64,000 nt of DNA from a virus. The position numbers and the translations under genes are program-made. Below, in pieces: positions 5,221 through 58,501 of this stretch. The DNA lies in the IMG/VR virus record IMGVR_UViG_3300028920_000054, positions 1 to 64,000 of that record. One strand, written 5' to 3'. How positions within the stretch are numbered: the stretch's first letter is position 1; every line of letters starts with the position of its first letter. The notes under the pieces were generated by a model. That model did no database searches and was not told the origin of the DNA. It saw nothing but the letters and a program-made list of their open reading frames with translations.

Positions 5221-5255
5221 TTAAAAAATAAGACCGCAATCAATTTATTTTTTAA
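5221..5255. repeat. Perfect 11-bp inverted repeat downstream of promoter P1
   Basis: TTAAAAAATAA (5221-5231) and TTATTTTTTAA (5245-5255) are exact reverse complements separated by 13 bases. The repeat lies at about the expected transcription start of the promoter at 5188. It could be an operator or a 5' RNA hairpin. Confidence 0.6.
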
Positions 5256-13019: not shown

Positions 13020-13021
13020 GA

Positions 13022-31327: not shown

Positions 31328-31772
31328 ACGATTTAAGGATGAAACCAAACTTGTTGCGAAGTGGACTGCTAAAATAAGGGGCGGATATTACTTCCACGTT
31401 TTTCTATGGCAAGACCAAGACAGTTTCGATGAAAACACCTATGACAAGGTTCCAAATTCTTGTCTTGGTTGTGTAGATTTTGTTCCATGGACTTTGTTTA
31501 TAGACAAAGGCACTGAAATACGAGTGGTAAAACCAAAGTTAGGCGAAATACATTTTATAAAAGAAAAGTGGAATACCGAAATTGTTGCACACGAATTGTG
31601 TCACGCATTGATACATAGACTCAGGGTGGTAGAGCCAAGCGTGGAAAAGGTTATAGATCAAGAAGATGACGCAGAAGAAGATGTGTGCTATTGGTTTGGA
31701 AGATTATTTAACGATATTTATAGACTATTGTGGGAAGTAGACCCACCAAAGGGATTTGGAAAACAACAATGA
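31320..31772 (+). CDS. HExxH metalloprotein, unknown
   Basis: A 150-residue protein, TTG start, lodged between gmd and fcl. [14 protein letters not shown] contains HELCH (91-95), with several downstream acidic residues ([13 protein letters not shown]) that may supply a third ligand. It is cysteine-containing (SCLGC). A small zinc peptidase-like fold is likely. Function in a sugar operon is not obvious. Overlaps its neighbours by eight and four bases. Confidence 0.65.
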
Positions 31773-32692: not shown

Positions 32693-33588
32693 AAACCATA
32701 AAGATTAATTTTTCCAATTGGTGGGGGTTCGGAATAGAAGAATGGAGGGCTATGTTCTCTTTTCTTGATTACAATTTTGTTCTTAGTCTTCATCCAGATT
32801 ATGTTATATTTTCAAATACAGCAGAAAGAAGTATGCCAACCATCCATTGCGAAAGACGCGTTAAGAAAATATTCTTCATGGGTGAAATTATAGATGTTGA
32901 CATGTCTAAATGCGATTGGGCGTTTGGAGATAATTACGTAAACAGCCCAAGGCACTTCAGGATGCCATACTATGTTATAAGGATGTTGTATACAGGAACA
33001 CCACTTGATTCGCTCATAAAAAATATAGACACAGAACAGGTAAAGTATGAAAAGACAAAATTCTGTAATTTCCTTTTTTCAAATACAAGAGATGGTGAAA
33101 CTAGGAATAGATTTTTTAAAGAACTGTCAAAATATAAGAAGGTAGATTCGGCAGGCACTTCGTTCAATAATATGGGGTTTGTTTTGGGTGGAAGACAGGG
33201 AACCAAGGTTGGCGGATATACGAAATATCCTGAAAAAATGAGATTTCTCAGAGATTATAAGTTCACAATAGCATTTGAAAACAACAGAAGCGATTATAAC
33301 CCAAATTCAGGATATACGACGGAAAAACTTACAGAGCCAATGCTAGTAAATAGTATCCCAATTTACAGGGGCAATCCAAGAATTGGTGAAGAATTTAACA
33401 CAAACAGCTTTTTTAATTATTATGACTTTCGTTCAGAAAAAGAATTCATAGACTACATAATTGAAGTTGATAAAAACGACTATCTGTATGAAGGGATGTT
33501 GGAAGAACCGTGGTTGCTTGGGAACAAATTGACAAAACAGCTAGATGTAAAAGCGATTAAGCGGCAGTTTGAGAAGATATTTAGATAG
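32689..33588 (+). CDS. GT10 alpha-1,3/4-fucosyltransferase
   Basis: A 299-residue protein. The GT10 signature is unmistakable: FCNFLFSN...R..FF..LSKYKKVDSAG (about 126-155), then YKFTIAFENNRSDYNPNSG, YTTEKLTEPMLVN and SIPIYRGNP (190-230). This is the donor-binding (Y)KF.IAFEN....YVTEKL...L....PIYWG motif of bacterial and animal alpha-1,3-fucosyltransferases. It lies directly after gmd and fcl. The acceptor is unknown. TTG 32689 is preferred because it overlaps the fcl stop; an in-frame ATG at 32653 is possible. Confidence 0.92.
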   Translation: MKTIKINFSNWWGFGIEEWRAMFSFLDYNFVLSLHPDYVIFSNTAERSMPTIHCERRVKKIFFMGEIIDVDMSKCDWAFGDNYVNSPRHFRMPYYVIRMLYTGTPLDSLIKNIDTEQVKYEKTKFCNFLFSNTRDGETRNRFFKELSKYKKVDSAGTSFNNMGFVLGGRQGTKVGGYTKYPEKMRFLRDYKFTIAFENNRSDYNPNSGYTTEKLTEPMLVNSIPIYRGNPRIGEEFNTNSFFNYYDFRSEKEFIDYIIEVDKNDYLYEGMLEEPWLLGNKLTKQLDVKAIKRQFEKIFR

Positions 33589-35702: not shown

Positions 35703-36677
35703 ATGGCTAACACGAGTGGTAATGGTACAAGTTGGAACCTGCCAAACTATATTGGAACAATATATATGGTGGGGTCTGACAACAAAACCCCCTTTATTAA
35801 CATGATGGGTGGGTTGGAAGGTGGAAAGGTTCGCTTGGTAGCAGATCAGCAGTTTGCGGTTTCTCAGCCTTGGGATTTGGCAACGGCTAGTTCGGCGAGT
35901 ATTTCTGAAACAGCTTCAGCAACCGCATCTACAGCATATCAGTATGTAAGAAGTGCAGACTACAACTCAACGCAGATACTTCAGAGACGGGTAAATGTTT
36001 CCTACACGAAACTATCTGCTACTGGACAGGTAACTGCCGACACTACAACCAATCTTATAGATGCGAGCGAATGGGACCCCGCACAGAACGAGCTTGATTT
36101 CCAAATTAACGCAAACCTGAAGCAGATTGCGAAAGATCTTGAATACATATGTTTCAAGGGTGTATATCAGCAGGCTAGTTCCGCTGCTGTTGCTGGCAAG
36201 TCTCGTGGTCTTGAAGCTGTTGCTGCACTTTCCGGCTCTAGCACAGTTGCGGCTGGTAGCGTTGACCTTTCAAGAGACCTCGTAAACGAACTCTTGAGAA
36301 CGATGCTTGACAAGGGTGCTGAATTTGAAAATCCCGTCCTGTTCTGTAATGCATTCCAGAAACAGCAGATTTCCAATGAATACGGATATGAACCCGAAAG
36401 CAGGGATGTTGGTGGTGTGAATATTCAGCAGATTATGACAGACTTCTGCGTCCTTGGTGTAGTTTATTCTCCACAGGTAACTACAAGCACAGTCGTCATC
36501 GCAGATATGGCGTTTTGTCATCCTGTTTGGCTTCCAGTTCCCGGCAAGGGAGTTCTGTTCTATGAGGAGCTGTCTAAAACGGGCGCGAGTGAAACGGGGC
36601 AGATATTCGGACAGTTCGGCCTGGACTCAGGTCCTAAGGAGTTCATAGGCTCAATTACCGGTTTAACAACAAGTTAA
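35703..36677 (+). CDS. Major capsid protein (SU10/DUF5309-like)
   Basis: A 324-residue protein after the scaffold. It begins NGTSWNLPNYIGTIYMVGSDNKTPFINMMGG, and has long helices (QINANLKQIAKDLEYICFKG) and C-terminal beta strands (AFCHPVWLPVPGKG, PKEFIGSITGL). This is the SU10-type HK97-fold capsid (DUF5309) pattern of phages with SU10-like heads. Ser/Ala/Thr-rich segments near residues 60-75 may be surface loops. It has a strong ribosome-binding site (AGGAGA). Confidence 0.85.
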   Translation: MANTSGNGTSWNLPNYIGTIYMVGSDNKTPFINMMGGLEGGKVRLVADQQFAVSQPWDLATASSASISETASATASTAYQYVRSADYNSTQILQRRVNVSYTKLSATGQVTADTTTNLIDASEWDPAQNELDFQINANLKQIAKDLEYICFKGVYQQASSAAVAGKSRGLEAVAALSGSSTVAAGSVDLSRDLVNELLRTMLDKGAEFENPVLFCNAFQKQQISNEYGYEPESRDVGGVNIQQIMTDFCVLGVVYSPQVTTSTVVIADMAFCHPVWLPVPGKGVLFYEELSKTGASETGQIFGQFGLDSGPKEFIGSITGLTTS

Positions 36678-36716: not shown

Positions 36717-36738
36717 ATAAATCCACTTGGATACATTT

Positions 36739-37608
36739 ATGCACAATCTAATTTGTCAGTATTGCGGAAAATCTTTTAGTGCAAGAAATTGGTACGCTAA
36801 ATACTGTAGCCCTAACTGTAAGTCACATGCATATTCAGACAAGCATCGTGACGAAATAAACAGTAGGGTTCGTAAAAACAGGGCTGGCAAAGAAGACAGA
36901 AAGAAAAATGGTAAATATACGCATAAATGTATCCATTGTGGAATAACGTTTCGATCAACAAGGCCCACCTGTTTGTCCTGTGGCAAACGAGACAAACTTC
37001 ATCGGCCAAACGAAAAACAAACAATGGTAGAGTTGACCTGCGAACACTGTGGAAAGGTTTTCACAAAACCTAAAGCTCAATATGTTCAGGCAACCAAAAA
37101 CGGTAAAAAGTTAGGGTGCTGTCAACGGCATACACACATATTGCATGGCCGCACTCTTTCTTTAACTTGCAGCGAATGTGGAAAGACATTTGAACGGGCC
37201 AAGTCTACTTACGAACACGACAATAAGGAAGGCGGACATGTGTTTTGCTCACGGGAATGTCAAGACAAAAACATAGATTACATTCTCAGGGGCGAAGACC
37301 ACTACCACTATATTGACGGAAAATCAAGTGGGTATCGTGGTAAGGGTTGGAACAAAATTCGTAAGCGTATCAGAGAACGAGATAAACATACTTGTTATTT
37401 GTGTGGTAAGACAAGAGAAGATATTGGCAAGGAACTTGATGTCCACCATTTAATTAGGTTTGAAGATTTTGAAGATGAAAACGATGCTAACCAAGGGTAT
37501 AATTTGATTTCACTTTGCCCTTGTTGTCATCACACTGAAGAAATTAATCCTACAATTTTAAGGATAGTCCCGTTGATTCGGGAGCGTAAGGAACGAATGG
37601 CAGCGTAG
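36739..37608 (+). CDS. HNH endonuclease with tandem zinc ribbons
   Basis: A 289-residue protein inserted between the capsid and decoration genes. It has three or four CxxC...C zinc ribbons (CQYCGKSF, CIHCGITF, CEHCGKVF, CSECGKTF), then a C-terminal HNH domain: RERDKHTCYLCGK, LDVHHLIRFEDF, NLISLCPCCHHTEE. It is a free-standing homing nuclease, and likely targets the capsid region of phages lacking it. ATG 36739 is preferred over the in-frame TTG at 36727. Confidence 0.88.
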   Translation: MHNLICQYCGKSFSARNWYAKYCSPNCKSHAYSDKHRDEINSRVRKNRAGKEDRKKNGKYTHKCIHCGITFRSTRPTCLSCGKRDKLHRPNEKQTMVELTCEHCGKVFTKPKAQYVQATKNGKKLGCCQRHTHILHGRTLSLTCSECGKTFERAKSTYEHDNKEGGHVFCSRECQDKNIDYILRGEDHYHYIDGKSSGYRGKGWNKIRKRIRERDKHTCYLCGKTREDIGKELDVHHLIRFEDFEDENDANQGYNLISLCPCCHHTEEINPTILRIVPLIRERKERMAA

Positions 37609-39049: not shown

Positions 39050-39436
39050 ATGAGTAGAACACCTACAGTAATGAAAAACTTTTCCAAGGACTCAGCGTTT
39101 GTTACCTATGAGTCTAGTTCTGGGACTCTTGACTTTACATTGTCCGCAAACTTTGCAACCTACTCCAACTTTGAATACGAGTTGTTGGGCGTAGAATTGC
39201 ATATTGTTGGCACAGCACCAACTACTACAGAAAACTTCACGGTAATAAGAGATGCGACAGCTGGAAGTCCATACGACGCAAAGCTGTATTCTAAGGATAT
39301 GGGTGGGGTTAAAGATATAGTGTGGGGACCTGAAGAACCGCTTCTGTTTGCATTAAACGACGAAGTTGATATTGCATGGCTTAACTCTGAAGCCAAAACA
39401 TACGGTCTTTCGGTGCGGTATCGGAGGCTGACATAA
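39050..39436 (+). CDS. Structural protein, unknown
   Basis: A 128-residue beta-rich protein (SGTLDFTLSANFATYSNFEYELLGVELHIVG; EVDIAWLNSEAKTYGLSVRYRRLT). Thr/Ser content and spacing in the virion operon suggest a head decoration or fiber domain. AAGGAG precedes ATG. It overlaps the next gene by one base. Confidence 0.5.
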   Translation: MSRTPTVMKNFSKDSAFVTYESSSGTLDFTLSANFATYSNFEYELLGVELHIVGTAPTTTENFTVIRDATAGSPYDAKLYSKDMGGVKDIVWGPEEPLLFALNDEVDIAWLNSEAKTYGLSVRYRRLT

Positions 39437-40002
39437 TGGAAATAATAAACGGAATAGACATAAACACAGGAGCAACAGCGGCTTCACTTTCAGACATTGC
39501 TGCAAACGTTATCGGAATAACAGGCTACGCAACAGAAGCTTCTCTTTCCGAAGGTCTTGCTGGAATTATAGGTATAACAGGCTACTCAACGGAAGCTTCC
39601 GTCTCTGAAGTTGCCTCAAGTGCGATATCAATTAAAACAACAACAGACAAATTAGCCGGATCAATTGCCGCAAGTGCCACAACTGCAAGCTGGAACACAT
39701 CAGAAGCAAACATAGTTTCAATAGGGGCCAATGACACAAAATACAAACTTCATTCTCTCGTGGTAGACATGAACGCACTTCATGTTGGAGCCACCATTAC
39801 ACTCAGGATGTATTCTCAAATAAATGGGACAGAACGAAAGCTGTACGATGAAGACTATGTTGTTGGAACAGACCCAGATGGCGTGTGGCTTGTGGATGGA
39901 ACCGTTGGGATACACGAGGTGCTAAGAGTTTCCGCAGAAAGCAATGCGGCAACAGATGACGGTGCTTCAATACCATACGATTACATCCTTGAAGAAATGT
40001 AA
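39436..40002 (+). CDS. Structural protein with repeated glycine loop
   Basis: A 188-residue protein. Its N-terminus has a two-and-a-half-fold repeat (IIGITGYSTEASVSE, VIGITGYATEASLSE) of 24-26 residues; the rest is a beta sandwich (HSLVVDMNALHVGATITLRMYS, YIL...). The repeats resemble adhesin/fiber stalks. Likely a virion surface protein. Confidence 0.5.
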   Translation: MEIINGIDINTGATAASLSDIAANVIGITGYATEASLSEGLAGIIGITGYSTEASVSEVASSAISIKTTTDKLAGSIAASATTASWNTSEANIVSIGANDTKYKLHSLVVDMNALHVGATITLRMYSQINGTERKLYDEDYVVGTDPDGVWLVDGTVGIHEVLRVSAESNAATDDGASIPYDYILEEM

Positions 40003-42614: not shown

Positions 42615-45600
42615 ATGCAGTGGGTTTTTAAAGTAGGATATAAAAAACTTGTTCCTGATTTGACAACAAGACTGAAATATTGGTCTGACTGTCAACTAGT
42701 GGACATACGCCCTTCAGGGTTTTATCCTACTAAAGCGGGAAAGCACTTCTGCATTATTGAAGACGGGAAAGATTACTGGAAAGTTAGAAGCACTACCGAC
42801 TGGAAGTCCACGAAGAAAAGTGTTCTTGACCTGAAAAAATACCTTACAGTTGCAGATGCAAAGGGGAAGTATCCGTGGGATGCAGGATATAATGAAAACA
42901 CGGTTCCGAAGAGAAAGCGGGACTGGTTTATTGATTACAAATCACTGTTAGATAAAAAGCATATTACTGATTCGCAATTTGATGGAATTTACGATAAATC
43001 ATGGGAGGAAATAATCGTTCTTGAGGGTGACATTACGCAATTGCTTACTCATGAAGATGCAAAAACACGCTTGCAATCTATATATTCTGATAAGACCGGA
43101 ACCGTTGCACAAAACGGAGCTGGTGCAGGAACAGATGGGGCTTTTACTATAGGTGCGACCGGAGATTACGCAACCCTGACGTTGGCAGAAGCAGATATTG
43201 CGGCTCAACTCACTGGGGACTTAACCTTTGAACACCTTAATGAGCAAACCGCCATATCCTCATTGGTACAGTTTGACCTTGATACAAATGGACACCTATT
43301 AAAAATAACAGCATCACCTGGGGCGGAACACAACGGTGGTGCGTACGGGAATGGAGCAAGAATAGACAGGGGAACATATGATGATATCAGATGTCTTGAG
43401 ACTGTCGAGGGGAGCTTTGATGATTTAGAATTTTCAAATCTAGCTTTTGATGTTTCTGGGGCTGGGAATGACGGGTTGTTCTTGTCGAATGGAGCTAAAG
43501 GGGGAACGTGGACTGTAAACCGTTGTTTGTTTAAGGGGGGGTCTAGTTCTGTTAGTCTACTAAGGGTTTATTACAATGCAAAAAACGTAATATTGAAAAA
43601 CAATATTGTTTATGGAAACGATGGAACATATGGGGGAATTGTCCTAGAATCAATTTATGCTGGAAGCCATCAAGTGTATAACAATACTTGCGTTGGAAAT
43701 CGTTTTGGAATCAAACAAGATTACGCTTCAGAATCAACAACAACGATGGTTTTTAAAAATAATCTTTGTCAAGCCAATACGTCTGATTTCATTGATGATG
43801 GGGCTGGCTTTGGAACTACGGGTCACAATATTTCTGAGGACGATACAAGCCCTGACGCTTCATACCAAGAAAAAGACCTGCATACAAATTCCATATTTTT
43901 AGATTACGATAACAACGATTATCGTCTTAATTCTGCCGGAGATGCTACAAATCTTGCCATAGTTGATGACGGTGAAGACCTGTCTGTAATATTCACAGAT
44001 GACATTCAGGGGCAGACACGCTCAACTTGGTACATTGGGGCGAGCGAAATAGTCTCTAGCGAAGAAACAATAACCATAACACCTTCCATCGACGCCCTTG
44101 TTGCTAAAACATTTACCAAAACAGCCTCCCTTGACGCTCTTTTACAATCGGTCAGAACAGACACACTTTCAATAGACTCGTTGCTTTATGCAACCAAAAC
44201 GCAAGAAGTCTCGTTAGATTCGCTTTTGCAAGCAGTTAAAACAGGAGCGCTATCCATTGATTCGTTAGTTTCCGTTGCTAGAACAATAACCGTTTCCCTT
44301 GACTCTTTATTGGCGGTGGTCGGAACCGATACAGTTTTAATAGATGCTCTTTTACAATCAGCAAAGACACAGAAAGTTTCCTTGGATGCGCTTTTACAGG
44401 CGGTTAAAAGTGGTTCGCTGTCGATTGATGCGTTACTGCAATTAACAAAGACTAAAACGATTTCAATGGATACCCTGCTTAGTGCTGTTAAAACGGGTGA
44501 AACTTCCCTAGATTCTATGCTTGCAGTCGTTGGGACTAAGACTGTTTCAATAGACACGCTTATTCAGGCAGTTAAGGAAGGTGTTCTGTCCATAGATACT
44601 TTGATTCAGGCAACAAAAACAACTTCGGCTTCGATAGACTCGTTATTGCAAGACAGCAAAAGCAATACGGTTTCTTTAGATTCAATGTTACGGGCAGTAA
44701 AAAGCGGAACCACTTCACTTGATTCTATTCTTGCTGTAATCGGAACAAAAACTATTTCACTTGATGCGCTGTTAAGCGCTACAAAAACAGGAACGCTTTC
44801 GATAGATTCATTGATACAAGCAGTTGGAACAAAGACGGTTTCAATGGATGCATTGTTGCAAGAAGTTAAGTCTGGAACATTGTCGTTAGATGTGTTCCTT
44901 GAGGCAACACAAACCAAGGAACTTTATTTAGACGCTCTTATAGAAGCAGTAAAGTCTGGTGTCGTTTCGTTAGATACCATTTTGTCTTCAGGCTTATCTA
45001 ACACCATTTCGTTAGACGTTCTTTTACAAGCAGTAAAAACCAACACGATATCGCTAGACACTTTAATGCTGTTGGCTAAAACGCAGACAGTCTCAATCGA
45101 CACCATTCTGGCTGTCGCTAACAGCGTTGGAATATCGGTTGACGCACTTTTAGAGGCAAGCAAGGCGAACACCATTTCACTAGATTCGTTGTTACAGGCA
45201 GTAAAGAGTGGCGTGGTTTCCATAGACGCTATATTGGCAGGTGGAACAGGAATAATTCTTTCACTCGATGCTCTTTTACAAAGCACCAAAACCGGGGTTG
45301 TTTCAATAGATTCATTGGTTCAGGTTGCAAAGACAGATTCTACCATGCTTGATTCTATTATATCAATGACAATGGAATCGACTTCTGTGCTTGACGCTTT
45401 TATTCAAAAAGCACAGACATCTTATGTTTCGATAGACACGTTGTTGCAGTCTGTCAAAACAAAAATACTTTCGATTGATGCCCTGTTAAGTCTAGTAAAA
45501 TCGGTTTCAGTTTCGATAGACAGTCTTTTGATGGCAACCAAAGATGAAGTTCTGTCCATTGATGCCTTGATACAGGCTTCTTATGGCAAGACGCTTGATG

Positions 45601-46337
45601 TGGACGCACTGTTACAAGCAACCAAAGAAGGAACCACTTCTTTAGATGCGGTTATATTTTTGGTTGGTGGTCTTTCTGTTTCATTAGACGCACTATTGAT
45701 GGCAGTAAAGAACGAAACCTTATCGTTGGATACGCTTATACAGATAACCCAAACAGAAACGGTTTCTATTGACGCTCTTTTAGGTGCAGAAAAGACCGGA
45801 TTGATTTCGTTGGATTCGTTGCTTAAAATGGCAAAGACCAATTCGGTATCAATAGATTCGTTGTTGCAGTCTTCAAAAGAAGGTTTTGTTTCGATTGACA
45901 CAATTATATCTCTTGTTTTTGTAAACAACATGTCTGTTTCTCTAGACAGTATGGTGGCATTGTTACAAACCAATCAGATTTCCATTGATGCCCTTATTCA
46001 AGCCGTTGGAACGGAAACTGTTTCGCTTGATACCTTATTGCAGGCAACAAACACAAGCACCGCCGTTATGGACGTTCTAATGTCTGCATCAAGAACAGGA
46101 ACTGCGGTAATAGATTCGCTGATTCAAAAGGGATACACCGGATACGCCCTTATTGATGCGATAATAGGCCACTTCCAAAGGGTTAGTCTTGATGTTTCGA
46201 TAAAGCCTGCCGGATGGGTATTGCCATTCAGGTCGATGGCAGAAGCACCATGGAGAAATAGGGTAGTTTCATCAGAAGGAAGAAACATGTATGTATCCGC
46301 ACCGGGTCGGACGAGAATAGTTTATAGTAATAATTAA
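42615..46337 (+). CDS. Beta-helix virion protein with about 50 tandem 14-residue repeats
   Basis: A 1240-residue protein. Residues 1-150 are an N-terminal domain without recognised motif; 165-460 form a right-handed beta-helix region with N/G-rich turns (VILKNNIVYGNDG, MVFKNNLCQANTSD) like pectate-lyase/fiber proteins. Residues 491 to about 1195 are the 14-residue repeat array (see separate entry). The C-terminus (SIKPAGW to SNN) is a short tail-type end. It lies between the lysis-like genes and the head-tail connectors; probably an elongated fiber or stalk on the virion. Confidence 0.75.
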   Translation: MQWVFKVGYKKLVPDLTTRLKYWSDCQLVDIRPSGFYPTKAGKHFCIIEDGKDYWKVRSTTDWKSTKKSVLDLKKYLTVADAKGKYPWDAGYNENTVPKRKRDWFIDYKSLLDKKHITDSQFDGIYDKSWEEIIVLEGDITQLLTHEDAKTRLQSIYSDKTGTVAQNGAGAGTDGAFTIGATGDYATLTLAEADIAAQLTGDLTFEHLNEQTAISSLVQFDLDTNGHLLKITASPGAEHNGGAYGNGARIDRGTYDDIRCLETVEGSFDDLEFSNLAFDVSGAGNDGLFLSNGAKGGTWTVNRCLFKGGSSSVSLLRVYYNAKNVILKNNIVYGNDGTYGGIVLESIYAGSHQVYNNTCVGNRFGIKQDYASESTTTMVFKNNLCQANTSDFIDDGAGFGTTGHNISEDDTSPDASYQEKDLHTNSIFLDYDNNDYRLNSAGDATNLAIVDDGEDLSVIFTDDIQGQTRSTWYIGASEIVSSEETITITPSIDALVAKTFTKTASLDALLQSVRTDTLSIDSLLYATKTQEVSLDSLLQAVKTGALSIDSLVSVARTITVSLDSLLAVVGTDTVLIDALLQSAKTQKVSLDALLQAVKSGSLSIDALLQLTKTKTISMDTLLSAVKTGETSLDSMLAVVGTKTVSIDTLIQAVKEGVLSIDTLIQATKTTSASIDSLLQDSKSNTVSLDSMLRAVKSGTTSLDSILAVIGTKTISLDALLSATKTGTLSIDSLIQAVGTKTVSMDALLQEVKSGTLSLDVFLEATQTKELYLDALIEAVKSGVVSLDTILSSGLSNTISLDVLLQAVKTNTISLDTLMLLAKTQTVSIDTILAVANSVGISVDALLEASKANTISLDSLLQAVKSGVVSIDAILAGGTGIILSLDALLQSTKTGVVSIDSLVQVAKTDSTMLDSIISMTMESTSVLDAFIQKAQTSYVSIDTLLQSVKTKILSIDALLSLVKSVSVSIDSLLMATKDEVLSIDALIQASYGKTLDVDALLQATKEGTTSLDAVIFLVGGLSVSLDALLMAVKNETLSLDTLIQITQTETVSIDALLGAEKTGLISLDSLLKMAKTNSVSIDSLLQSSKEGFVSIDTIISLVFVNNMSVSLDSMVALLQTNQISIDALIQAVGTETVSLDTLLQATNTSTAVMDVLMSASRTGTAVIDSLIQKGYTGYALIDAIIGHFQRVSLDVSIKPAGWVLPFRSMAEAPWRNRVVSSEGRNMYVSAPGRTRIVYSNN
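44085..46196 (+). repeat. Tandem 42-bp (14-codon) repeat array, about 50 copies
   Basis: Each unit reads (S/V)(I/L/V)D(A/S/T)LL-x-(A/S)-x-K-T-x-x-(L/I/V), for example SLDSLLQAVKTGAL and SIDTLIQAVKEGVL. The Asp at position 3 is constant in all units. One unit has 16 residues and one 12. DNA copies are diverged, so selection acts on the protein and not on the DNA. The frame is continuous across all units. Confidence 0.9.
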
Positions 46338-46357: not shown

Positions 46358-46864
46358 ATGGCGAGCACCATCCAGATACACGAAATGAGCGGGTTAACAA
46401 CCGGTACGGACAAAACTTCAGGAACGGTAAGATTTAAACTAGCGGACAACGCTACGGTAGATACTTCCAATCCGTTGGTTGTTCCTGCTGCCGGAAGTGA
46501 TTATTCGTACACAAAACAGCTAAGGGCATATATGGAAGCACCCCCAAGTTCTTCCGTATCAAACTTAAAATGGTATTCAGACGGATTCAATTCCTTCGGA
46601 ACCGGAATAACAGTAAATGCCCTGAATAAAGGAACCACGTGGGTTGCTAATTATGAAACGGAAGCAACCGGAGGGGCAGACCTTTTCAGTTATGCTTCAG
46701 GAACACCGCTTGATGGCGACACAACCGATGCGGGACCATTTACATTGTCAGATGACGATTCTTACATAGGGGATTTGATACTCTTGCAGATGATTGTAGC
46801 ATCAACAGCCACTAACGGAGTTAAGTCTGCGGAAACATTGACATTTTCATTCGATGAAGTTTAA
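46358..46864 (+). CDS. Structural protein, unknown
   Basis: A 168-residue beta-rich protein (MASTIQIHEMSGLTTGTDKTSGTVRFKLADN; LKWYSDGFNSFGTGITVNALNKG). The Thr/Ser-rich sandwich style matches virion surface domains. AGGAGG precedes ATG. It follows the repeat protein and precedes the connector genes. Confidence 0.5.
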   Translation: MASTIQIHEMSGLTTGTDKTSGTVRFKLADNATVDTSNPLVVPAAGSDYSYTKQLRAYMEAPPSSSVSNLKWYSDGFNSFGTGITVNALNKGTTWVANYETEATGGADLFSYASGTPLDGDTTDAGPFTLSDDDSYIGDLILLQMIVASTATNGVKSAETLTFSFDEV

Positions 46865-46880: not shown

Positions 46881-47177
46881 ATGCAGAAAAACTATGTTTG
46901 GGAAGCTGAAAGGTCAGACGGAACCATTGTTGCAAAAGGTGAAAACCTTGAGGATTGTGTAAGGTTTTCTCTTATTCCATTTAGTTTCGGATTGCAGAGA
47001 TTCGATCTGATAGGAATTAAAATGAAACGCAGATTCTGTCGTGGATTTATAAATGCCCTTGGTGGGGGATACAAAGATTATCTTCACTGCATAGTGTGCG
47101 ATGGCTTTAGGGTGTGGGTAAGTTATAAAAGTGGAAGGGTTTGGATTTTACCTGAAGACTATGAACTTAGGCTGTAG
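46881..47177 (+). CDS. Small hypothetical protein
   Basis: A 98-residue protein. It has a WEAERSDGTIVAKGENLEDC start (a pattern of small phage proteins describing a data-entry-like strand pair), a hydrophobic centre and a basic C-terminus (WVSYKSGRVWILPEDYEL). No family is recognised. AAGG precedes ATG at 46881. Confidence 0.5.
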   Translation: MQKNYVWEAERSDGTIVAKGENLEDCVRFSLIPFSFGLQRFDLIGIKMKRRFCRGFINALGGGYKDYLHCIVCDGFRVWVSYKSGRVWILPEDYELRL

Positions 47178-47187: not shown

Positions 47188-47514
47188 ATGGCATTTGGAG
47201 CAAAACAATCAAGTGAATTGTATTATGTACTGTTTGACTTTGATGAAGACCTTAATCCTACAGATTCAGATGGGACTTCTCTTGCCACGGATAGTCTTGC
47301 GTCTATTGCTACAGTATCTGTTGTTGACCAGAATACAGGGTATTCGTTTGCAACCCTTGTGGACACTTCAAAGAACTCTGTTGATTCTACAAGGGCGTGG
47401 GTGTGGGTTAAGGATGGGACTTCAGGGCACAATTATAAAATAACGGTGCTGGTTCTTACGAATTCAAATGCAAAGTATGAAATGGATGGAATTTTACCAG
47501 TGAGGGATAAGTAA
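47188..47514 (+). CDS. Small structural/connector-associated protein
   Basis: A 108-residue beta-rich protein (YVLFDFDEDLNPTDSDGTSLAT; WVWVKDGTSGHNYKITVLVLTNSNAKYEMDGILPVRD). The N-terminal pattern resembles small neck-region proteins. It overlaps the following connector gene by one base. Confidence 0.5.
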   Translation: MAFGAKQSSELYYVLFDFDEDLNPTDSDGTSLATDSLASIATVSVVDQNTGYSFATLVDTSKNSVDSTRAWVWVKDGTSGHNYKITVLVLTNSNAKYEMDGILPVRDK

Positions 47515-47984
47515 TGCCGACTGTAGATTCAACAAACTCATATAGAACTATAGCACAGATAGACACATATTGTGAAAACCATGGACTCACTGAGTGGGCA
47601 GACGCCTCAAACTATGACAAAGAAACTGCCGCCTTAAGGGGCATGGCTTACATAGAATCAAAAATGTATAAGGGGCAGAAATATTCAAGCACCCAAGACA
47701 GAAAATGGCCACGGATAAATGCCACGGATGAAGACAATGTTGTGATAGATTATTCTACGATTCCCGATGCTATAGCAAACGCTCAATGCCGTGCGGCCTA
47801 TGAAGAAATTGTCAGTCCCGGAATTTTGCAACCAAACCTTTCGAGGGATTCGTTTACAAGCAGAGAAAAAATTGACGTGATAGATATAAGCTATGAACCG
47901 GGAAGAAACAAAACGGCATTTCAAGTAATAGATGGATACTTAAGGGGGTATCTGTTGCAAACCGGAACGCTAATAAGGTGTTAG
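47514..47984 (+). CDS. Head-tail connector (DnaT-like gp6-type)
   Basis: A 156-residue protein. It starts PTVDSTNSYRTIAQIDTYCENHGLTEWADA, then SNYDKETAALRGMAYIESKMYKG, and RAAYEEIVSPGILQP, a typical all-helical connector module annotated in many phages as DnaT-like or gp6-like head-tail connector 1. It would form the ring below the portal. AAAGG-type spacing; overlaps upstream gene by one base. Confidence 0.7.
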   Translation: MPTVDSTNSYRTIAQIDTYCENHGLTEWADASNYDKETAALRGMAYIESKMYKGQKYSSTQDRKWPRINATDEDNVVIDYSTIPDAIANAQCRAAYEEIVSPGILQPNLSRDSFTSREKIDVIDISYEPGRNKTAFQVIDGYLRGYLLQTGTLIRC

Positions 47985-47993
47985 GAGAAAATC

Positions 47994-48185
47994 ATGGGTA
48001 TAACTTCAGAAGCAGCCCTTAAAAGGGGTTTGATTGCGGCGAACGAAAGAATAGCATCACTTGAAAAGTTGGTGAAGTTTTTTGAAGAAAAGGCCATTCA
48101 AGAAGAAGCATTAAAAGAAGAAGCACAGAAAAACCTTTACGACTTGGTTAAGAAGATAGAAAAGAAAGCCAAAAAAGACGAATAA
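47994..48185 (+). CDS. Small coiled-coil protein
   Basis: A 63-residue protein, almost entirely one charged helix (NERIASLEKLVKFFEEKAIQEEALKEEAQKNLYDLVKK). RBS AGGAGA precedes ATG 47994. It overlaps the next gene by one base. Position among connectors suggests a small neck or assembly factor. Confidence 0.55.
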   Translation: MGITSEAALKRGLIAANERIASLEKLVKFFEEKAIQEEALKEEAQKNLYDLVKKIEKKAKKDE

Positions 48186-48541
48186 TGGATTACGATGCCA
48201 TTGCAACCAAAGCAAACGCTTTAATAGTAAAATATGGTGGAGATGTTGTTCTAACACAGACATCGCTTTCTTCAACATATTCTACGCTTACACATTCGTA
48301 TACCAAGACCACAAAAACGTATTCGTGTAAGGGCGTTTCAAGGGAACATTCAAAAGGTTTATTGCCTGCATCATTGGGAGTTGGTTCGGATGAAGACTTT
48401 TTGTTACCTGCGTCTTTGGCAGTAGCTCCGGTTCCAAACGATACGATGACATTTAGCGATGTAACATACTATATAGATAGGGTAAGGCCGGTGGCCCCCG
48501 GTGGAACAACATTGCTTTACAAGGTATGGGTTAAGGGATGA
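48185..48541 (+). CDS. Head closure / head-tail joining protein
   Basis: A 118-residue protein (MDYDAIATKANALIVKYGGDVVLTQ ...; PVPNDTMTFSDVTYYIDRVRPVAPGGTTLLYKVWVKG). The final VAPG..(T/V)L.Y...VKG pattern is typical of head closure proteins (gp16/Phage_connect family) of siphophages. It lies between connector 1 and the gp10-like neck protein. Overlaps the next gene by four bases. Confidence 0.65.
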   Translation: MDYDAIATKANALIVKYGGDVVLTQTSLSSTYSTLTHSYTKTTKTYSCKGVSREHSKGLLPASLGVGSDEDFLLPASLAVAPVPNDTMTFSDVTYYIDRVRPVAPGGTTLLYKVWVKG

Positions 48542-49011
48542 GAAACTATCCAATAGATACTAATGCTGCCGGATTTATGAAAACACTTCGGAAAATTGGA
48601 GAAGACATAAAGGCAGACGCAAAAAAGATGGTAAATGGCGTTGTTACAAGAACGCTTGATTCTGAAATTGCAGCATCACCGGTTGACAAAGGAAATTATA
48701 TCGCAAGTCACAGGGTTGCGGTTAATGCAGAACGGACAGACTTTTATAATGGCGACTTTGGTGGTGCAAGATATAGCGAAGCAAGGGCACAGGCAGGGGC
48801 GAATTATTCAAAGCAGGAGGCGGCTGATTTTGATTGGAATTTTGGTGATAGTTCTGTGTGGTTTTCTAACCATGTACCACACGCAAGTTACGTTGAGTAC
48901 GGAAGTCCTTCGTGGAAATATACCGGCCCGTACTTGATTTACGCTCAGGCCGAAGAAAGGGTTAAGAACATATATATCCCCGAAGAAGCTAAGAAAGTTG
49001 GCTGGGAATGA
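48538..49011 (+). CDS. Neck protein, HK97 gp10-like
   Basis: A 157-residue protein. A helical N-terminus (FMKTLRKIGEDIKADAKKMVNG), then ASPVDKGNYIASHRVAVNAE, WFSNHVPHASYVEYGSP and a final YAQAEERVKNIY. HVPYA..(V/I)E.G.....P.G is the hallmark of gp10-like head-tail proteins. It connects head and tail. Overlaps neighbours by four bases. Confidence 0.8.
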   Translation: MRNYPIDTNAAGFMKTLRKIGEDIKADAKKMVNGVVTRTLDSEIAASPVDKGNYIASHRVAVNAERTDFYNGDFGGARYSEARAQAGANYSKQEAADFDWNFGDSSVWFSNHVPHASYVEYGSPSWKYTGPYLIYAQAEERVKNIYIPEEAKKVGWE

Positions 49012-49409
49012 CGATTCAAGAAGTTTACAATGCGCTTGATGCCTATATAAATGTTTCGTGGACGACAACTTCCATTCAGGCAGAGAATTATGAATTTGAC
49101 ACCGAAACAACCACTCCATATATTCAACCGCTGTTTGTTCCTGATGTTGTGGCAGAAGGGGAGGTTGCTGGAAGCAATAGTGCCGGTGTAAGCATAAGAT
49201 ACGGAACGTACATGATTAACGTGTACAGACCAAAGAATGAAGGTCTTGCAACCATAATGGGGTATTTGAGTACATTAGAAGGATTGTTTTATTACAAAGA
49301 CATTAAGTGTGTAAATACTGAAAGGCCATATTCGAGAAGGATAGGAATAGAAGGAAATTTTGTTAGGTGGGTAGTTATAATACCATGGTTTGCATTTGTT
49401 AATGAATAG
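49008..49409 (+). CDS. Tail terminator / completion protein (DUF4128-like)
   Basis: A 133-residue protein: TIQEVYNALDAYINVSW (helix 1), YEFDTETTTPYIQPLFVPD, GTYMINVYRPKNEGLATIMGYLSTLEGLFY and WVVIIPWFAFVNE. The order of helix, beta-hairpin, central strand and final strand, with the gene position, fits tail completion/terminator proteins (gp17/DUF4128). It ends just before a glycosyltransferase gene. Confidence 0.7.
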   Translation: MTIQEVYNALDAYINVSWTTTSIQAENYEFDTETTTPYIQPLFVPDVVAEGEVAGSNSAGVSIRYGTYMINVYRPKNEGLATIMGYLSTLEGLFYYKDIKCVNTERPYSRRIGIEGNFVRWVVIIPWFAFVNE

Positions 49410-49422
49410 ACCGGGAGGGTTT

Positions 49423-50547
49423 ATGTTAAGTTTTTGTTTGATGGTTCGGGATGAAGAAGCCAATTTACCAAGATGCCTTGAAAGCATCAAAAACGTAGCA
49501 GATGAAATAATTGTAGTAGATACAGGTTCAACTGATAAGACGAAAGAAATTGCGTTAAGTTACGGAGCAAAGATTTATGACCATCCATGGGAAGATGATT
49601 TTTCGTTACATCGAAATCAGACCCTTGGATATGCAACCAAAAAGTTTGTGTTTGTAATAGATGCAGATGAAGAACTCTTTTTTAACGAAGATGTAGAAAA
49701 GTTCAAAAAGTTCCTTAAAAAATTGCCAGATCAGTATAGTACTATTCTTCTTTTGGTAAAGGATATGGCGGGTGGCAAGAATGTAATGCAGTTCAATTCC
49801 GCAAGGCTGTTCAGACGTGGAACGGTGCATTACGAAAACGCAGTCCACAACCAACCCATTGCGACGGGAAAGGGTGGAATATACGAAGGTTGTTATTTGA
49901 GGCATTATGGATATGACCTTACGCCGGAACAAAAAGAAATTAAAAAGCAGCGTATCCTAAAAATGCTTACACGCAGACTTGAAAAGGACCCAGAAGATTG
50001 GGATGCGTACTTTTATCTGTGCCAATGCTATGCCGTAAATGATGAAGTTGAAAAGTCAATTGAAGCGGGAGAGATTTATATTTCGCATAAAGAAGAAATT
50101 ACCATAAAAGACTCGATATTCTTTACCATGGTAAGACAGTATATGAAGATGAAAAATGAGACCAAGGCATCGGAATGGTTACACATGGGACTAGAAAGGA
50201 GACCAGACGATCTTGACCTGAACGTTGCCATGGTTGAATTTGGAGTATGGGCGCAGAATTCTTTTCTTATAGCAAAGGGAGCACAGCAGTACATTTTAAG
50301 TTATGAACAAATGAAGCAAAACCCGATGGCAAAAGGAAATAGGTTTGTGTTTTCGTTCAGCAATGAGGTTCTTGCATTTTGTCACTACTGGCTTGCGTTG
50401 GTAAGGTTAGAAGAAGGAAAACGGGTTCTTGATGGTCTTAAAAATTTACTTCCAATAGTATCGGAAGAATGCAGAGAAAAGACCACAAAAAACCTTGCAG
50501 AATTTTGGCAAAAGTTGGGAGGTATTTCAATTGAATTTACCTCGTAA
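49423..50547 (+). CDS. GT2 glycosyltransferase with TPR domain
   Basis: A 374-residue protein lodged between tail terminator and tail tube genes. Residues 1-190 are GT2: LSFCLMVRDEEANLPRCLESIKN, IIVVDTGSTDKTKEIA and FVIDADEEL (DxD). Residues about 195-370 contain TPR-like helical repeats (WDAYFYLCQCYAVNDEVEKSIEAG). ATG 49423 follows GGGAGG. GT2-TPR enzymes glycosylate proteins or grow glycans; here, tail or capsid proteins are attractive acceptors. Confidence 0.88.
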   Translation: MLSFCLMVRDEEANLPRCLESIKNVADEIIVVDTGSTDKTKEIALSYGAKIYDHPWEDDFSLHRNQTLGYATKKFVFVIDADEELFFNEDVEKFKKFLKKLPDQYSTILLLVKDMAGGKNVMQFNSARLFRRGTVHYENAVHNQPIATGKGGIYEGCYLRHYGYDLTPEQKEIKKQRILKMLTRRLEKDPEDWDAYFYLCQCYAVNDEVEKSIEAGEIYISHKEEITIKDSIFFTMVRQYMKMKNETKASEWLHMGLERRPDDLDLNVAMVEFGVWAQNSFLIAKGAQQYILSYEQMKQNPMAKGNRFVFSFSNEVLAFCHYWLALVRLEEGKRVLDGLKNLLPIVSEECREKTTKNLAEFWQKLGGISIEFTS

Positions 50548-52959: not shown

Positions 52960-52995
52960 AAAGCCGAGCAAACCTAAAAAGTAGCTTGGCTTTTT
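52959..52995 (+). terminator. Intrinsic terminator between chaperone and tape measure
   Basis: AAAAGCCGAGC (52959-52969) pairs with GCTTGGCTTTT (52984-52994), 11 pairs with one G.T, followed by another T. It overlaps the stop of the frameshift product. It should cut transcription into the tape measure gene, which is needed in few copies per virion. Confidence 0.8.
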
Positions 52996-53008
52996 GCGTG
53001 GAGATGCC

Positions 53009-56000
53009 ATGGCAGGCGTAAGATTCAGCATTGATACATCTGGAGTTTCTACCGGGGCAAACAAGGCAGTTAAAGAGTTTGAACGGATAGGTGCGGCTGC
53101 ACTAAAAACTGAAACCCAAATAAAGAAATTAGAGGCATCAATGGGAATCAGTGGGGCTAAGATGCAGGGAGCTGCCAAACAGACCGATGCCGCAACAAAG
53201 GCTACAAAAAACTATGGGAATGCAGCCAACCTTGCTGCCACTAGTCAAGCAAAACTGGCTAAAGCCACACAGTCTTCACACGATAAATTAGTAACGTTCG
53301 TAAGGTCTGTAGCTTCTACTGCTGCAACGTTAATGATCTTAGATAGAGTTTTAACAAAAGTTGCAGCGGATATGAAAATAGGAATGGACTTTGAGCAGGA
53401 AATGGCACGAGTAAGGGGTGTCATGCGAGCTTCTGTGTCTGAATTTAATGCACTATCAAAAGCCGCTAGATTGGCAGGAGAATCGACGGTGTGGACTGCA
53501 TCTGAAGCAGCAAACGCACTAAGATATCTTGCCATGGCTGGATTTTCAGCGAAAGAATCTCTTTTGTCTCTAAGTGGTGTCTTGAACTTAGCGCTTATCG
53601 GAGAACTTGACCTTGGAAGGGCAACTGATATAGCGTCCGACTCTTTGCGTGCTATGAACCTTGAAGCGGACCAGATGAACAGAGTTGTTGATGTGTTCAC
53701 CGGAACCATAACAAGGTCTAATACAAACATCGAAATGATGGGCGATGCAATGAAGTTTGCAGCACCACTTGGTGCTCAATTAGGGTATACAATAGAACAA
53801 CTTTCGGCAATGATAGGAACGCTATCACAGTCTGGAATCAAGGCTGGAATCGCTGGGCGTGGCTTGCAGATGGCATTCATAAAAACTTCCGATGCGGCAA
53901 AAAAGCTTGGACTGTCTGTGGATGCAAACTTGATAGATGTTATAAAGGCTTTGGCACAGCAAGAGGTTTCGGCAACAGAAATATCCAAGATGTTTGGAGC
54001 ACGTGCATTAAAAACAGTTTTAGTGCTTAAGAGCAACATATTCCAATATGAAAGATTTGCCAATACACTCAAGCACGTTGGTGGGGAAAGCCAAGCATAC
54101 ATCGACCAATTGGATACCATGGAAGTTGCACTTACAAAACTTAATTCCATGATCGCATCCATAAAGATAGACATTTATATGCACTATCTTACTTCACTTA
54201 AAAATGCCACCAAAGACCTTACAAAGTTTCTAGGCGACAACCGAAAGACAATAGAATTGTCAATAATAGCAAGCTTTAAACTTGCCAAAATATTGGGCGA
54301 AGGTGGTGTGCTTTTTATCGCATACAAACTTTTAACCAAAACCGTTGGGACATCTTCTGTTGCCTTAAGATGGTGGAATGCTTCTCTTGCTGGAACTATT
54401 GCCATATCAAAGTACGCAGTAAAAAGTCTTTTTACGCTAAAGGGAGCGTTTCAGGGACTGTTTGCTTTCTTGGTCGGATGGGAAATAGGAAAATATCTTC
54501 GAGAAAACTTCTTAGAAGCACGGATAGCTGGAGTTGTAGCTGTTGACTTGATAATGAAGGCATGGATAAACCTTAAGTATGCAGTGTTGATATCTTGGGA
54601 GCTAATAAGCCATACCGTTAAGTCGGTAGCAGATTCGATGGTTGGATTTTTCAACAGTGCGATAGAAAAAATAAAATCAGCATTTGGAACAATGCTTGGT
54701 TGGATAGCGGATAAGGTTTCTTATGTTACCTTTATGGGAGATGCTGCTAAGTCATTAAAAGATGTAGCGGATGGATTAAAGGAAATTTATACCATAGAGG
54801 GTCACACAAAAAGCATGATATTCGACGACTCTAGCGCTATGGATAAAAATCAAAAAAGCATTAGAGAAACCGTTGATGCAATAAAAAAACTTACAGACGA
54901 AAGAAAGGTGGCCCTTTCTGAACATCAGAAAATTATCAATGCTATGGTTGATGAAACGGCAAAAGTCGATGTGCTTCAAAAGGCTGAAGTTAAACTTATG
55001 GCAACAATAGAAGACCACACAAAAGACCTTTGGGCGTTTAGGACAGAGCTTGTAGAAACCACAAAAGATTTGCTTAAATACCGTGATGCACTTACCTTAG
55101 AACAAAAAGAAAAACTTTACGAAAAATATGCAAAAGAATATCAAGCGCTTTATTATGGAGAAAAAGAATACAAGTTAATGATGCTTGATGAAGAGGCGGA
55201 AGCTGTCAAGGAAATGCTCAGCAAACAAATTACTAGCAAAAAAGCCTTTGCATTGGTTTCTGCCCAAATAGACGAACTTATATCTAGCAAGAAAAGATTA
55301 TTAATTATAGCAGACCTAACCCAAGCGGCAAGTTTCTATAAAGACTTAATAGGTTTTGAAGACACATATCACGATACAATGATGAAACTTATTGATGAAG
55401 AACAAAAAAGGAAAGCCGAACTATATAAAGATGATGTTGCTGCTGCAAAATGGGCAGCACAGGAAAAAGGAAAACTTGAACAAGACTTATTTGAAAAGAA
55501 AACTAAATATATAGCTGAAGGATTCGGAGAACTTGCTTCTGCATTTTCTGATATTGCTGGGCTTTATGATGATGGCTCTTCCGCAGCAAGGAGATGGCAA
55601 GAAGCGTCTAAAGTAATGGAAATGGCACAGAAGGCCGTTGCTGTTGTTAATGCAGTTGCGGCCATAGCCAATCAGGGATTGGGCGATCCATATACTGCGT
55701 TTGCTAGAATTGCGGCAATGACAGCGGCAATGGCTTCTTTACTTTCAACAATTGGCGAATCGGTAGGTGGCGGCGGTGGGGGTGGTAGTTTGTCAGCATC
55801 TTCTCTTACTGCAAGCACCGTTCTTGGTGCTGAAGCTGGTACGGGTAGTGAATCAACCACAAAATCATGGGAACTTCTTGAAGATACCTACAATATGGAA
55901 TACAGAGAATTGTCTGGTATTTATAATGAAATGAAGGATTTAAACAAAAATATCAGCGGTCTTGTAAGTAGCATATTTAGGACTGGAAGCCTAGATAACT

Positions 56001-58501
56001 TTCAAGTTTCATCATCTACTATTGGGAGTATGCAAGCTGCATGGGATAAGTTTAATAAGTTATCGTATCTTGGATTCGATAAGGTTCTTGATACACTGAC
56101 CTTTGGGTTTACATCATGGGCAAACAAGATCGTATCTAATTTTGTTGACAGCATCTTTGGTGGTGGTACAACCAAGAAGGTCACTGGTTCTGGCCTAGCA
56201 ACTAACGCAGCTACCATAGCATCTCTTCAGGGGGGTGGAGGAATCGGCGCTCAGCAATTTGTTGATATCAAGAAAACAACTGAAGGTGGGTGGTTCAGTT
56301 CCGACAAGACAGAAAGATATACAAGATATTATGAGCTTGACGAAGATGTTTCTCGCCTTTTAGACCAAGTCTTCCAAAACATTGGTTCTACTCTTATAGA
56401 ATTAACCACTTCGCTCGGTGCTGACATGGAAAACACGCTTAACTATGTCTTTGAAGGTGGAAAGCTTGACCTAAAGGGTTTGGATGCAGAAGGTGTAAAT
56501 AAAGCATTAACTGAATATTTTTCTGCAATTGGTGATACGGCAGCAGGAGCTTTGTTCGGCGACCTGATAAACGTTTACCAACAGGTTGGAGAAGGGTTGT
56601 TGGAAACGGCAACTAGACTTGTTGTTGATAAGGCTGTTGTTGTTGATACTTTGGGCATGATAGGGCAATCGTTCACCGGAACGATACCAGAAATAATAAG
56701 TTTTTCAGAATCCATTATAGGTATAGCTGGAGACCTTGAAACTTTTAGGGAAAGCGCTGAAACATATTATGACAAGTTCTTCACTGATTCCGAAAAACAA
56801 CTTCGTATTCAAGATCAATTGACTGCAACCTTCACCGATTTGGATATGGTTTTACCCACCACAAGAGATGGCTTCAGGGCTCTCGTAGAAGGTCTTGATT
56901 TAACCACAGAAAGTGGAAAAGAGGCTCTAGTTGTTTTGCTTTCAGCATCGGAAGCGGCTGATACTTATTATTCAACCATTGAAGATATTACATCTGCAAT
57001 GTTGTCTTCTACGGAAGATATTATTAGTGCGCATGAATTATCTGATTATGACTTGTTAATTAAAAACGCCACTGATTGGAGAGACACACAATTGGACGCA
57101 TGGGCTTCTATTGAAGGCTCTGTGGATGTTGACACCTATGTCGCTGGTATTGATAGAATTGATACTGCATTTGGTTATATGCTTGATGACATTGAGCAAG
57201 ACGTGATTACTACTGCTGCCAACCTGTCAAATTCGCTTGCATCTTCTATAGGTTCACTTAAATACGGACAGAGCTATGGATATGCCGAAACGCTTGCAGC
57301 AAACCTAGACAACATAGCTTCCATGACAGGTCTTCCGGTTGAATATCAGCAATACCTTGTTGAACAGGCTACAGAATACTACAATATGCAAATGGCGGCA
57401 CTTGCAGCATCACAGTCGGCAGCAAGCGCATCCCAAAGCACCGCAAACTATGCCAAGGATGCAGCCAAAACACAACTGGAAGCACTTAAAGAACTTGAAA
57501 AGACCATAGAAACGTGGAAGGATACATATGACGATATTGCCGCACAGGTCTTGGGTTATAAAACAACTACCGCAAATCCTCAGGATGCAATAGAACGATT
57601 AGGAATAGCAAAGGGCGCAATCACAGACCTTCTTGGCGGAATGACTGCTGCGGAATACGTTGCTTCGTTCGGGTCAGTTGAAGACCAAGCACAAGCTGCA
57701 AAAACACTTCAGGAACTTTATGACAACTATCTGTCATTGGCACAGGAAGCATACCAACGCCCATCCACAGAATATCAACAGATTTACGCTGAAGTCATAG
57801 GCGAATTAACAAGCATAATTGGCTACATGGAAGAATACGCAACCCTTGAGTGGGAAGTGGCTATCGACCAGCTTGACGCACTCAGGGAAATACGTGACGC
57901 AATCGAAGCCCTAGAACTCATAGTTAATGTTGATGGTGGAACCGGAGGAGGGGGCGGTGGTGGCGGTGGTGGTGGCGGTAGCGCCGAAATCGAAATGCCT
58001 GAATGGTTAATTGGGCAATGGGAAACAATCACGACAGCTTACCAAAACGCATTAAGAGCCGGTGAAGTTGGAAAGGTTTATGATGTTTCTGCACAGTGGG
58101 GGCCTGGCGCAACCGAAACCTTCTATCCCGGTAATATTATGAACCTCATAGCCCAAGGTGAATCAATGTGGTTCACTCCACAGGATAGTATTTGGGACAT
58201 ATTCAAAAAGTACCCAATAATAGCAGAGGGGTGGGAAAAGCAGTTTGGTGGTTATAAGTTAGGCACTAATTATGTACCTGAAACAGGACTCGCTTACGTA
58301 CATGAAGGTGAACAAATCATTCCTGCCGGATATGATTACCCTGAACTTGCTGTTGGTGGGGTAGAGGTAAACTTCAACATTACTATAAACGGAAACGATA
58401 AACCAAAGGAAGTCGCAAAAGAAGTCAGGGTTGAAGTCGAAAACTTCATGCGTTCTTCTTTGGGAAGAAAACTAACACAGCAAACGGCTAGGGGTCGCTA
58501 A
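53009..58501 (+). CDS. Tail tape measure protein
   Basis: A 1830-residue protein, the largest gene here. Residues about 100-330 match the TP901-type tape-measure core (MDFEQEMARVRGVMRAS, ESTVWTASEAANALRYLAMAGFSAKESL, IGTLSQSGIKAGIAGRGLQMAF). Long coiled-coil regions follow (about 610-860), then an Ala/Gly-rich middle, poly-Gly hinges (GGGGGGSL, and a run of about 12 Gly near 1650) and a C-terminal Asn-rich end. It sets tail length; at roughly 0.15 nm per residue the tail would be about 270 nm. Confidence 0.93.
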   Translation: MAGVRFSIDTSGVSTGANKAVKEFERIGAAALKTETQIKKLEASMGISGAKMQGAAKQTDAATKATKNYGNAANLAATSQAKLAKATQSSHDKLVTFVRSVASTAATLMILDRVLTKVAADMKIGMDFEQEMARVRGVMRASVSEFNALSKAARLAGESTVWTASEAANALRYLAMAGFSAKESLLSLSGVLNLALIGELDLGRATDIASDSLRAMNLEADQMNRVVDVFTGTITRSNTNIEMMGDAMKFAAPLGAQLGYTIEQLSAMIGTLSQSGIKAGIAGRGLQMAFIKTSDAAKKLGLSVDANLIDVIKALAQQEVSATEISKMFGARALKTVLVLKSNIFQYERFANTLKHVGGESQAYIDQLDTMEVALTKLNSMIASIKIDIYMHYLTSLKNATKDLTKFLGDNRKTIELSIIASFKLAKILGEGGVLFIAYKLLTKTVGTSSVALRWWNASLAGTIAISKYAVKSLFTLKGAFQGLFAFLVGWEIGKYLRENFLEARIAGVVAVDLIMKAWINLKYAVLISWELISHTVKSVADSMVGFFNSAIEKIKSAFGTMLGWIADKVSYVTFMGDAAKSLKDVADGLKEIYTIEGHTKSMIFDDSSAMDKNQKSIRETVDAIKKLTDERKVALSEHQKIINAMVDETAKVDVLQKAEVKLMATIEDHTKDLWAFRTELVETTKDLLKYRDALTLEQKEKLYEKYAKEYQALYYGEKEYKLMMLDEEAEAVKEMLSKQITSKKAFALVSAQIDELISSKKRLLIIADLTQAASFYKDLIGFEDTYHDTMMKLIDEEQKRKAELYKDDVAAAKWAAQEKGKLEQDLFEKKTKYIAEGFGELASAFSDIAGLYDDGSSAARRWQEASKVMEMAQKAVAVVNAVAAIANQGLGDPYTAFARIAAMTAAMASLLSTIGESVGGGGGGGSLSASSLTASTVLGAEAGTGSESTTKSWELLEDTYNMEYRELSGIYNEMKDLNKNISGLVSSIFRTGSLDNFQVSSSTIGSMQAAWDKFNKLSYLGFDKVLDTLTFGFTSWANKIVSNFVDSIFGGGTTKKVTGSGLATNAATIASLQGGGGIGAQQFVDIKKTTEGGWFSSDKTERYTRYYELDEDVSRLLDQVFQNIGSTLIELTTSLGADMENTLNYVFEGGKLDLKGLDAEGVNKALTEYFSAIGDTAAGALFGDLINVYQQVGEGLLETATRLVVDKAVVVDTLGMIGQSFTGTIPEIISFSESIIGIAGDLETFRESAETYYDKFFTDSEKQLRIQDQLTATFTDLDMVLPTTRDGFRALVEGLDLTTESGKEALVVLLSASEAADTYYSTIEDITSAMLSSTEDIISAHELSDYDLLIKNATDWRDTQLDAWASIEGSVDVDTYVAGIDRIDTAFGYMLDDIEQDVITTAANLSNSLASSIGSLKYGQSYGYAETLAANLDNIASMTGLPVEYQQYLVEQATEYYNMQMAALAASQSAASASQSTANYAKDAAKTQLEALKELEKTIETWKDTYDDIAAQVLGYKTTTANPQDAIERLGIAKGAITDLLGGMTAAEYVASFGSVEDQAQAAKTLQELYDNYLSLAQEAYQRPSTEYQQIYAEVIGELTSIIGYMEEYATLEWEVAIDQLDALREIRDAIEALELIVNVDGGTGGGGGGGGGGGGSAEIEMPEWLIGQWETITTAYQNALRAGEVGKVYDVSAQWGPGATETFYPGNIMNLIAQGESMWFTPQDSIWDIFKKYPIIAEGWEKQFGGYKLGTNYVPETGLAYVHEGEQIIPAGYDYPELAVGGVEVNFNITINGNDKPKEVAKEVRVEVENFMRSSLGRKLTQQTARGR

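Follow-up and report, generated by a model that had tools for sequence, protein, structure and literature searches.

We identified a tandem repeat, with 14 or 15 residues per unit across its family, that forms a 50-unit array in a structural-region gene of a tailed phage. On balance, we read this array as the shaft of a virion fibre, with helical units packed between chains and an anchor at the C-terminus. The gene lies in the window, the whole stretch of DNA analysed here (64 kb of a virus record of 90,361 bases), where it sits between the SU10-like major capsid protein gene (35703-36677; PF17236, 6e-54) and the head-tail connectors (47514-49409), with the tape measure at 52994-58501, a setting that marks a tailed phage. 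As a structural-module gene whose product combines a putative modular adhesin with a shaft, it falls into the functional class of phage virion fibres or stalks. The oligomeric state, polarity, virion location and adhesive role of the protein are what we infer from these data.

The array protein gene (42615..46337, + strand) is one open frame of 1240 codons, with an ATG preceded by AGGA. Its product comprises, in this order, an N-terminal region, a probable beta-helix, the 50-unit array (44085..46190, + strand) and a C-terminal tail. About 50 copies of a 14-residue unit with an invariant Asp at position 3 had been predicted to recur in one frame, and we counted exactly 50 in-frame units, the first starting at 44085 and the last at 46149; every one of them has Asp at position 3 (29 GAT and 21 GAC codons). 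The 14-residue length holds for 49 units; the sole exception is unit 44 (SIDTIISLVFVNNMSV, 45891-45938), which has 16 residues. The window consensus is S-[LI]-D-[AST]-L-L-Q-A-x-K-T-x-T-[VLI], in which aliphatic residues or Phe occupy positions 2, 5 and 6. Position 1 is Ser in 42/50 units, every codon being TCN, which fits the descent of the window units from a single ancestor. The longest chain of motifs spaced by exactly 14 residues numbers 44 in the protein, compared with a maximum of 2 in 2000 shuffles of the same protein. The DNA of the repeats is indeed diverged, since the units share on average only 49% identity in DNA and 40% in protein. Between blocks of 10 units, dN is ~0.5-0.8 and dS ~1.4-2.3 where calculable; this dN well below dS, together with the use of both Asp codons, indicates that the repeat pattern is maintained by selection at the protein level. 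The window array is thus under purifying selection, rather than the product of recent duplication.

Neither the window ORF nor its repeat resembles a known family in the libraries that we searched. The ORF gave zero hits above cut-off in Pfam, PHROGs and NCBIfam, repeat families included, and the repeat is also missing from the PDB, which was searched with both the ORF and a profile of the array. The literature on this unit, or on 14-residue phage repeats, yielded nothing relevant. The 14/15-residue unit is therefore an uncatalogued repeat family as far as these libraries are concerned, and the profile search proposed with the original prediction returned no known family from Pfam, NCBIfam or PHROGs.

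When the array was used as a query against IMG/VR, two relatives were found, L001 and L005, and degenerate searches with the array or its consensus gave nothing beyond these two. In both, a homologue of the same small gene, which we call gene168, lies directly behind the array gene; in the window, this partner gene (46358..46864, + strand) starts 20 nt downstream of the array gene. The unit alignment is too variable for searching, and the query that worked was the gene168 profile (A4), which retrieved 30 viral loci as well as two contigs from bacterial MAGs (Desulfobacterales and Lutibacter). Gene168 itself, of which 24 members were aligned, matches nothing in the PDB and essentially nothing in PHROGs. 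Most gene168 loci carry arrays of the window-type unit, 14 or 15 residues long, in 7 to ~120 copies. They represent ~25 independent phages or prophages with arrays, otherwise unrelated and uncultivated, a count that allows for the near-duplicate contigs L010/L011/L012, L016/L017, L019/L037, L023/L024 and L055/L056. No cultured relative was found in the phage collection, the genome contigs searched with the array gave no match, and phylum-wide genome searches with gene168 gave just one further match, weak and array-free. Weak hits to single stretches of relatives were obtained for UBA_6 (on L001) and for phrog_2737 and phrog_23259, both of unknown function (on L021). A hit in Aeromonas phage vB_C4 (L003, E=2e-17) was rejected as homology: the tail protein of this phage (7971-12551, minus strand) ends in another 14-residue tandem repeat, PPYGLRSTVQAELL, with a sequence unrelated to that of the window array, and the match is to the antisense strand of that repeat.

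For the family-wide comparison, we scanned for units without regard to the Asp column, which gave 828 units. Position 3 is Asp in 799 of them (96.5%), and the substitutes in the other 29 units are Asn (13), Gly (6), Glu (6), Ser (2) and His (2). Ser, Asp, Asn, Glu and Gly are the preferred residues at position 1, aliphatic or aromatic ones occupy positions 2, 5 and 6, and position 4 is small (A/S/G). Units of 14 residues (486) and 15 residues (286) are freely mixed, and in the latter position 10 is Gly (68%), Asp (13%) or Asn (10%), followed by Leu or Ile. Such N-cap and C-cap residue patterns are well known to mark where helices begin and end. Two AlphaFold2 runs on single chains, one of them with a 44-row alignment (A6), likewise placed a helix in every unit, from residue 2 to residues 8-10. 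Residue preferences and models thus agree on a predicted unit made of one short amphipathic helix, over about residues 2-9, and a linker of 5-6 residues. The structure prediction that had been proposed as a check gave a short helix per unit and no confident tertiary fold, with pLDDT of 46.6 and 57.4 and pTM of 0.26 and 0.23 in the two runs. Foldseek found no match for the low-confidence model, as expected, and covariation between units showed no clear contact pattern, its signal being weak and dominated by rare substitutions.

The two ends of the array proteins behave differently: the array and the C-terminus are the constant part, whereas the N-terminus is variable. In the window, residues 1-160 (42615..43094, + strand) form a region whose fold was not recognised, with no match in Pfam, PHROG, NCBIfam or PDB and none in other array proteins. 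Residues 161-490 (43095..44084, + strand) are likely a right-handed beta-helix, as had been predicted, by way of the relative L019: residues 170-332 match the N-terminus of the L019 protein (28% identity, E=3e-4 in a small database), which hits Pfam Beta_helix PF13229 (E=2.1e-6), whereas the window ORF has no Pfam hit of its own. Probable beta-helices precede the array in the window, L019 and L030, and LamG-like modules in L009 and L025; in other array proteins the module is unrecognised, and several carry none. The window protein ends in a tail (VSLDVSIKPAGWVLPFRSMAEAPWRNRVVSSEGRNMYVSAPGRTRIVYSNN, 46191..46334, + strand) that resembles the tails of relatives and is a putative anchor or trimerisation end. 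Other array proteins also end in short strand-like tails, alike in style across the family, yet without a confident alignment. The last unit before the tail is mostly (L/I)(L/I)DA(I/V)(I/V), often LLDA(I/V)(I/V)YSxL. A constant C-terminus next to a variable N-terminus suggests that the array protein is anchored by its C-terminus.

If the array is the shaft of a virion fibre, each unit helix would have an N-cap at position 1 and a hydrophobic face at positions 2, 5, 6 and 9, with Gly, Asn or Asp as a probable C-cap at position 10 of the 15-residue units, and an extended T-K-T-V-like linker would follow each helix. Since amphipathic helices of only eight residues are not self-standing and no fold is predicted for one chain by itself, packing between chains is the simplest account: the hydrophobic faces would most likely pack against equivalent units of identical chains, probably in a trimer, to give a long helix-turn shaft whose length could change by whole units. 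Asp3 would most likely cap the helix start or hydrogen-bond to the preceding turn, rather than bind a metal. The variable N-terminal module, a probable beta-helix in the window, would stand at one end, where it could bind sugars or surfaces, and the C-terminal tail and last unit would probably attach the shaft to the virion, with the products of gene168 and of a second small gene, gene98, perhaps as intermediaries. As a rough estimate, 50 fully extended units (~3 nm per unit) would span ~150 nm, and units packed with the tightness assumed for helix-turn repeats ~50 nm. The long stalk of the original prediction is accordingly still the easiest reading of a repeat in a phage structural region that is joined to a probable beta-helix.

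The same helix-and-linker unit might instead build a solenoid from a single chain, each coil of 14 or 15 residues contributing one helix and one extended stretch; this would be a new fold of very short period. The strict period, the free mixing of the two unit lengths and the equivalence of all units are consistent with such a fold, and the hydrophobic end of the unit (positions 14/15) could line its core. True solenoids with comparable consensus repeats usually fold well in AlphaFold2, however, and here both runs gave low pTM and no tertiary structure, with no Foldseek match, which makes a solenoid rather unlikely. A solenoid of unit pairs (alpha-hairpins) was rejected because odd and even units do not alternate and there is no lag-2 excess specific to pairs. 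Of the novel solenoid that had been suggested, the uncatalogued repeat is supported, and a monomeric fold is not.

Low AlphaFold2 confidence is also compatible with disorder, and the array could be a flexible and mostly disordered spacer that forms helices transiently, perhaps bears mucin-like glycans on Ser or Thr, and holds the N-terminal module off the virion. Besides the low pLDDT, this is in line with the Ser and Thr content of the window array (26%) and with the glycosylation genes nearby. A GT2 glycosyltransferase gene (49390..50547, + strand; Pfam Glycos_transf_2 1e-18, phrog_13126), whose product also has weak TPR matches, lies between the tail terminator and the tail genes; its product is a candidate virion modifier, with the array as one possible target. 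A GDP-mannose 4,6-dehydratase, an epimerase of the GDP-fucose synthase type and an alpha-1,3-fucosyltransferase (GT10) are encoded at 30326-33588, apparently a phage-encoded fucosylation pathway, and a glycosyltransferase- or methyltransferase-like gene lies between gene168 and gene98 in five relatives (L001, L005, L024, L030 and L038). The array may be glycosylated, given these glycosyltransferase genes near it, here and in relatives. Nevertheless, disorder would not need a hydrophobic face at 2/5/6/9 and an Asp conserved across hundreds of diverged units, and there is no drift towards low complexity. Ser1 also becomes Asp, Glu or Asn elsewhere, as in L005, so that the fixed Ser/Thr pair for glycosylation that had been suggested is not a family-wide feature. 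We thus consider a disordered spacer unlikely.

The combination of a helix with a short extended linker rich in Thr and Val also recalls the trimeric alpha/beta coiled coils of Thermosinus Tcar0761 and OMP100, in which short helices and short extended segments likewise repeat (PMC4786415), and the T-K-T-V linker could form a beta-layer of the kind that is common in phage fibres (PMC4786415). That the array belongs to this class is quite improbable: those proteins have a 9-residue repeat with a MATKDD-type motif, their described registers read as 6, 9, 13 or 16, compared with the mixed 14 and 15 seen here, and the beta-layer motif [aliphatic]-A-T-K-x-[DE] was not found in the array (PMC4786415). 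A ladder of calcium or another metal, which the near-constant Asp had suggested, is very improbable indeed, given that L015, found after the 828-unit scan, has Asn at position 3 in 16/20 units, that Asn is the chief substitute elsewhere, that no second acidic residue is conserved, whereas RTX-type ladders (e.g. GGxGxDxUx) have acidic ligands in every repeat, and that no calcium-binding repeat of Pfam or NCBIfam matches.

Only a few phage shafts are known to consist of short tandem repeats (collagen-like, triple beta-spiral, helix-turn supercoil), and these are informative about structure. A fibre shaft of packed helical units would have a precedent in phi29 gp8.5, a trimeric phage fibre with short helix-turn repeats (PMC6542822, PMC7602432). 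The gp8.5 stem (PDB 3QC7) belongs to a long fibre, as the array protein presumably does, and its sequence has a 26-residue period that can be read as two 13-residue helix-turn units, e.g. NVKAFLQATTTDEN, which resembles SLDALLQATKT. No homology between the two is detectable (hhalign probability 0.07%, BLASTP E 0.81), and searches of PDB sequences, with the ORF or the array profile as query, matched no gp8.5 chain. Other differences are the number of repeats, few in gp8.5 and 50 in the window, the anchor, an N-terminal beta-barrel base in gp8.5 in contrast to the C-terminal anchor proposed here, and the position of the gene, directly after the major capsid protein gene in phi29 and ~5.9 kb after it in the window. 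By analogy, the array would work like gp8.5 without being homologous to it. SPP1 gp12, T4 fibritin and other phage fibres similarly join a modular shaft to a binding module and are encoded in structural gene regions, but the window repeat is none of the described shaft repeats, whether collagen-like, long coiled coil or Ig-like (PMC7602432).

The array cassette recurs in phages whose capsid proteins and terminases belong to different families. Its two small genes, gene168 and gene98, usually follow the array directly. Counting the window, 15 loci have the array stop 2-87 nt ahead of gene168, and in 6 loci the array is downstream of gene168, within 2.3 kb. Gene98 (46881..47177, + strand; alignment A8) has homologues in 20 of the 29 sequences compared, the window included, and searching with it adds further array loci. 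The SU10-type capsid protein was not found in the 13 other records tested; HK97-type proteins occur in 4 of these and neither type in the remainder, although these records may be fragments. The large terminases adjoining the cassette fall into different PHROGs (15, 38 and 5909). The position of the cassette also varies among genomes, in the neighbourhood of head genes, tail genes or the terminase: the window, L025 and L038 have it in a head-like setting, while the L019 array follows the central tail fibre J, in a tail-tip-like setting. In L058, where the setting is likewise tail-tip-like, the array comes after the tape measure and a probable Dit and before a hub/Tal-like protein that itself seems to have ~9 units built in, the Dit and these units being identified by sequence reading. 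It is a serious possibility, although short of probable, that these units, with one helix per 14/15 residues, form an undescribed fibre fold in which chains hundreds of residues long assemble into a shaft, and that it moves between unrelated tailed phages as a cassette of the array gene, gene168 and gene98, at times with a glycosyltransferase-methyltransferase gene. If so, the array would act as an extension arm for general use, to which different adhesion modules are grafted and whose length is set by the number of units. Such a repeat would offer protein engineering a new shaft with its length encoded by a simple unit, help to annotate many hypothetical phage proteins, and allow the modular transfer of virion appendages to be tested with this cassette.

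Some other features were observed in these loci. L032 carries another 14-residue repeat (DSTGSYSGSILERY, ~16 units, 12418-14190), 1.9 kb downstream of gene168, which suggests that the slot accepts unrelated repeats of equal length. In L018 (2063-5244), a reverse-transcriptase-like ORF (4018-5244) adjoins a tail protein gene (2063-3883), and the pair is probably a diversity-generating retroelement beside the cassette. In the window, a short protein encoded at 39436-40002 has a few ASLSE..IIGITGYATE repeats near its N-terminus, with no PHROG match and only one Pfam hit, weak and below cut-off. The HNH/zinc-finger-like ORF that immediately follows the capsid gene (36727-37608, weak Pfam hits) perhaps encodes a homing endonuclease.
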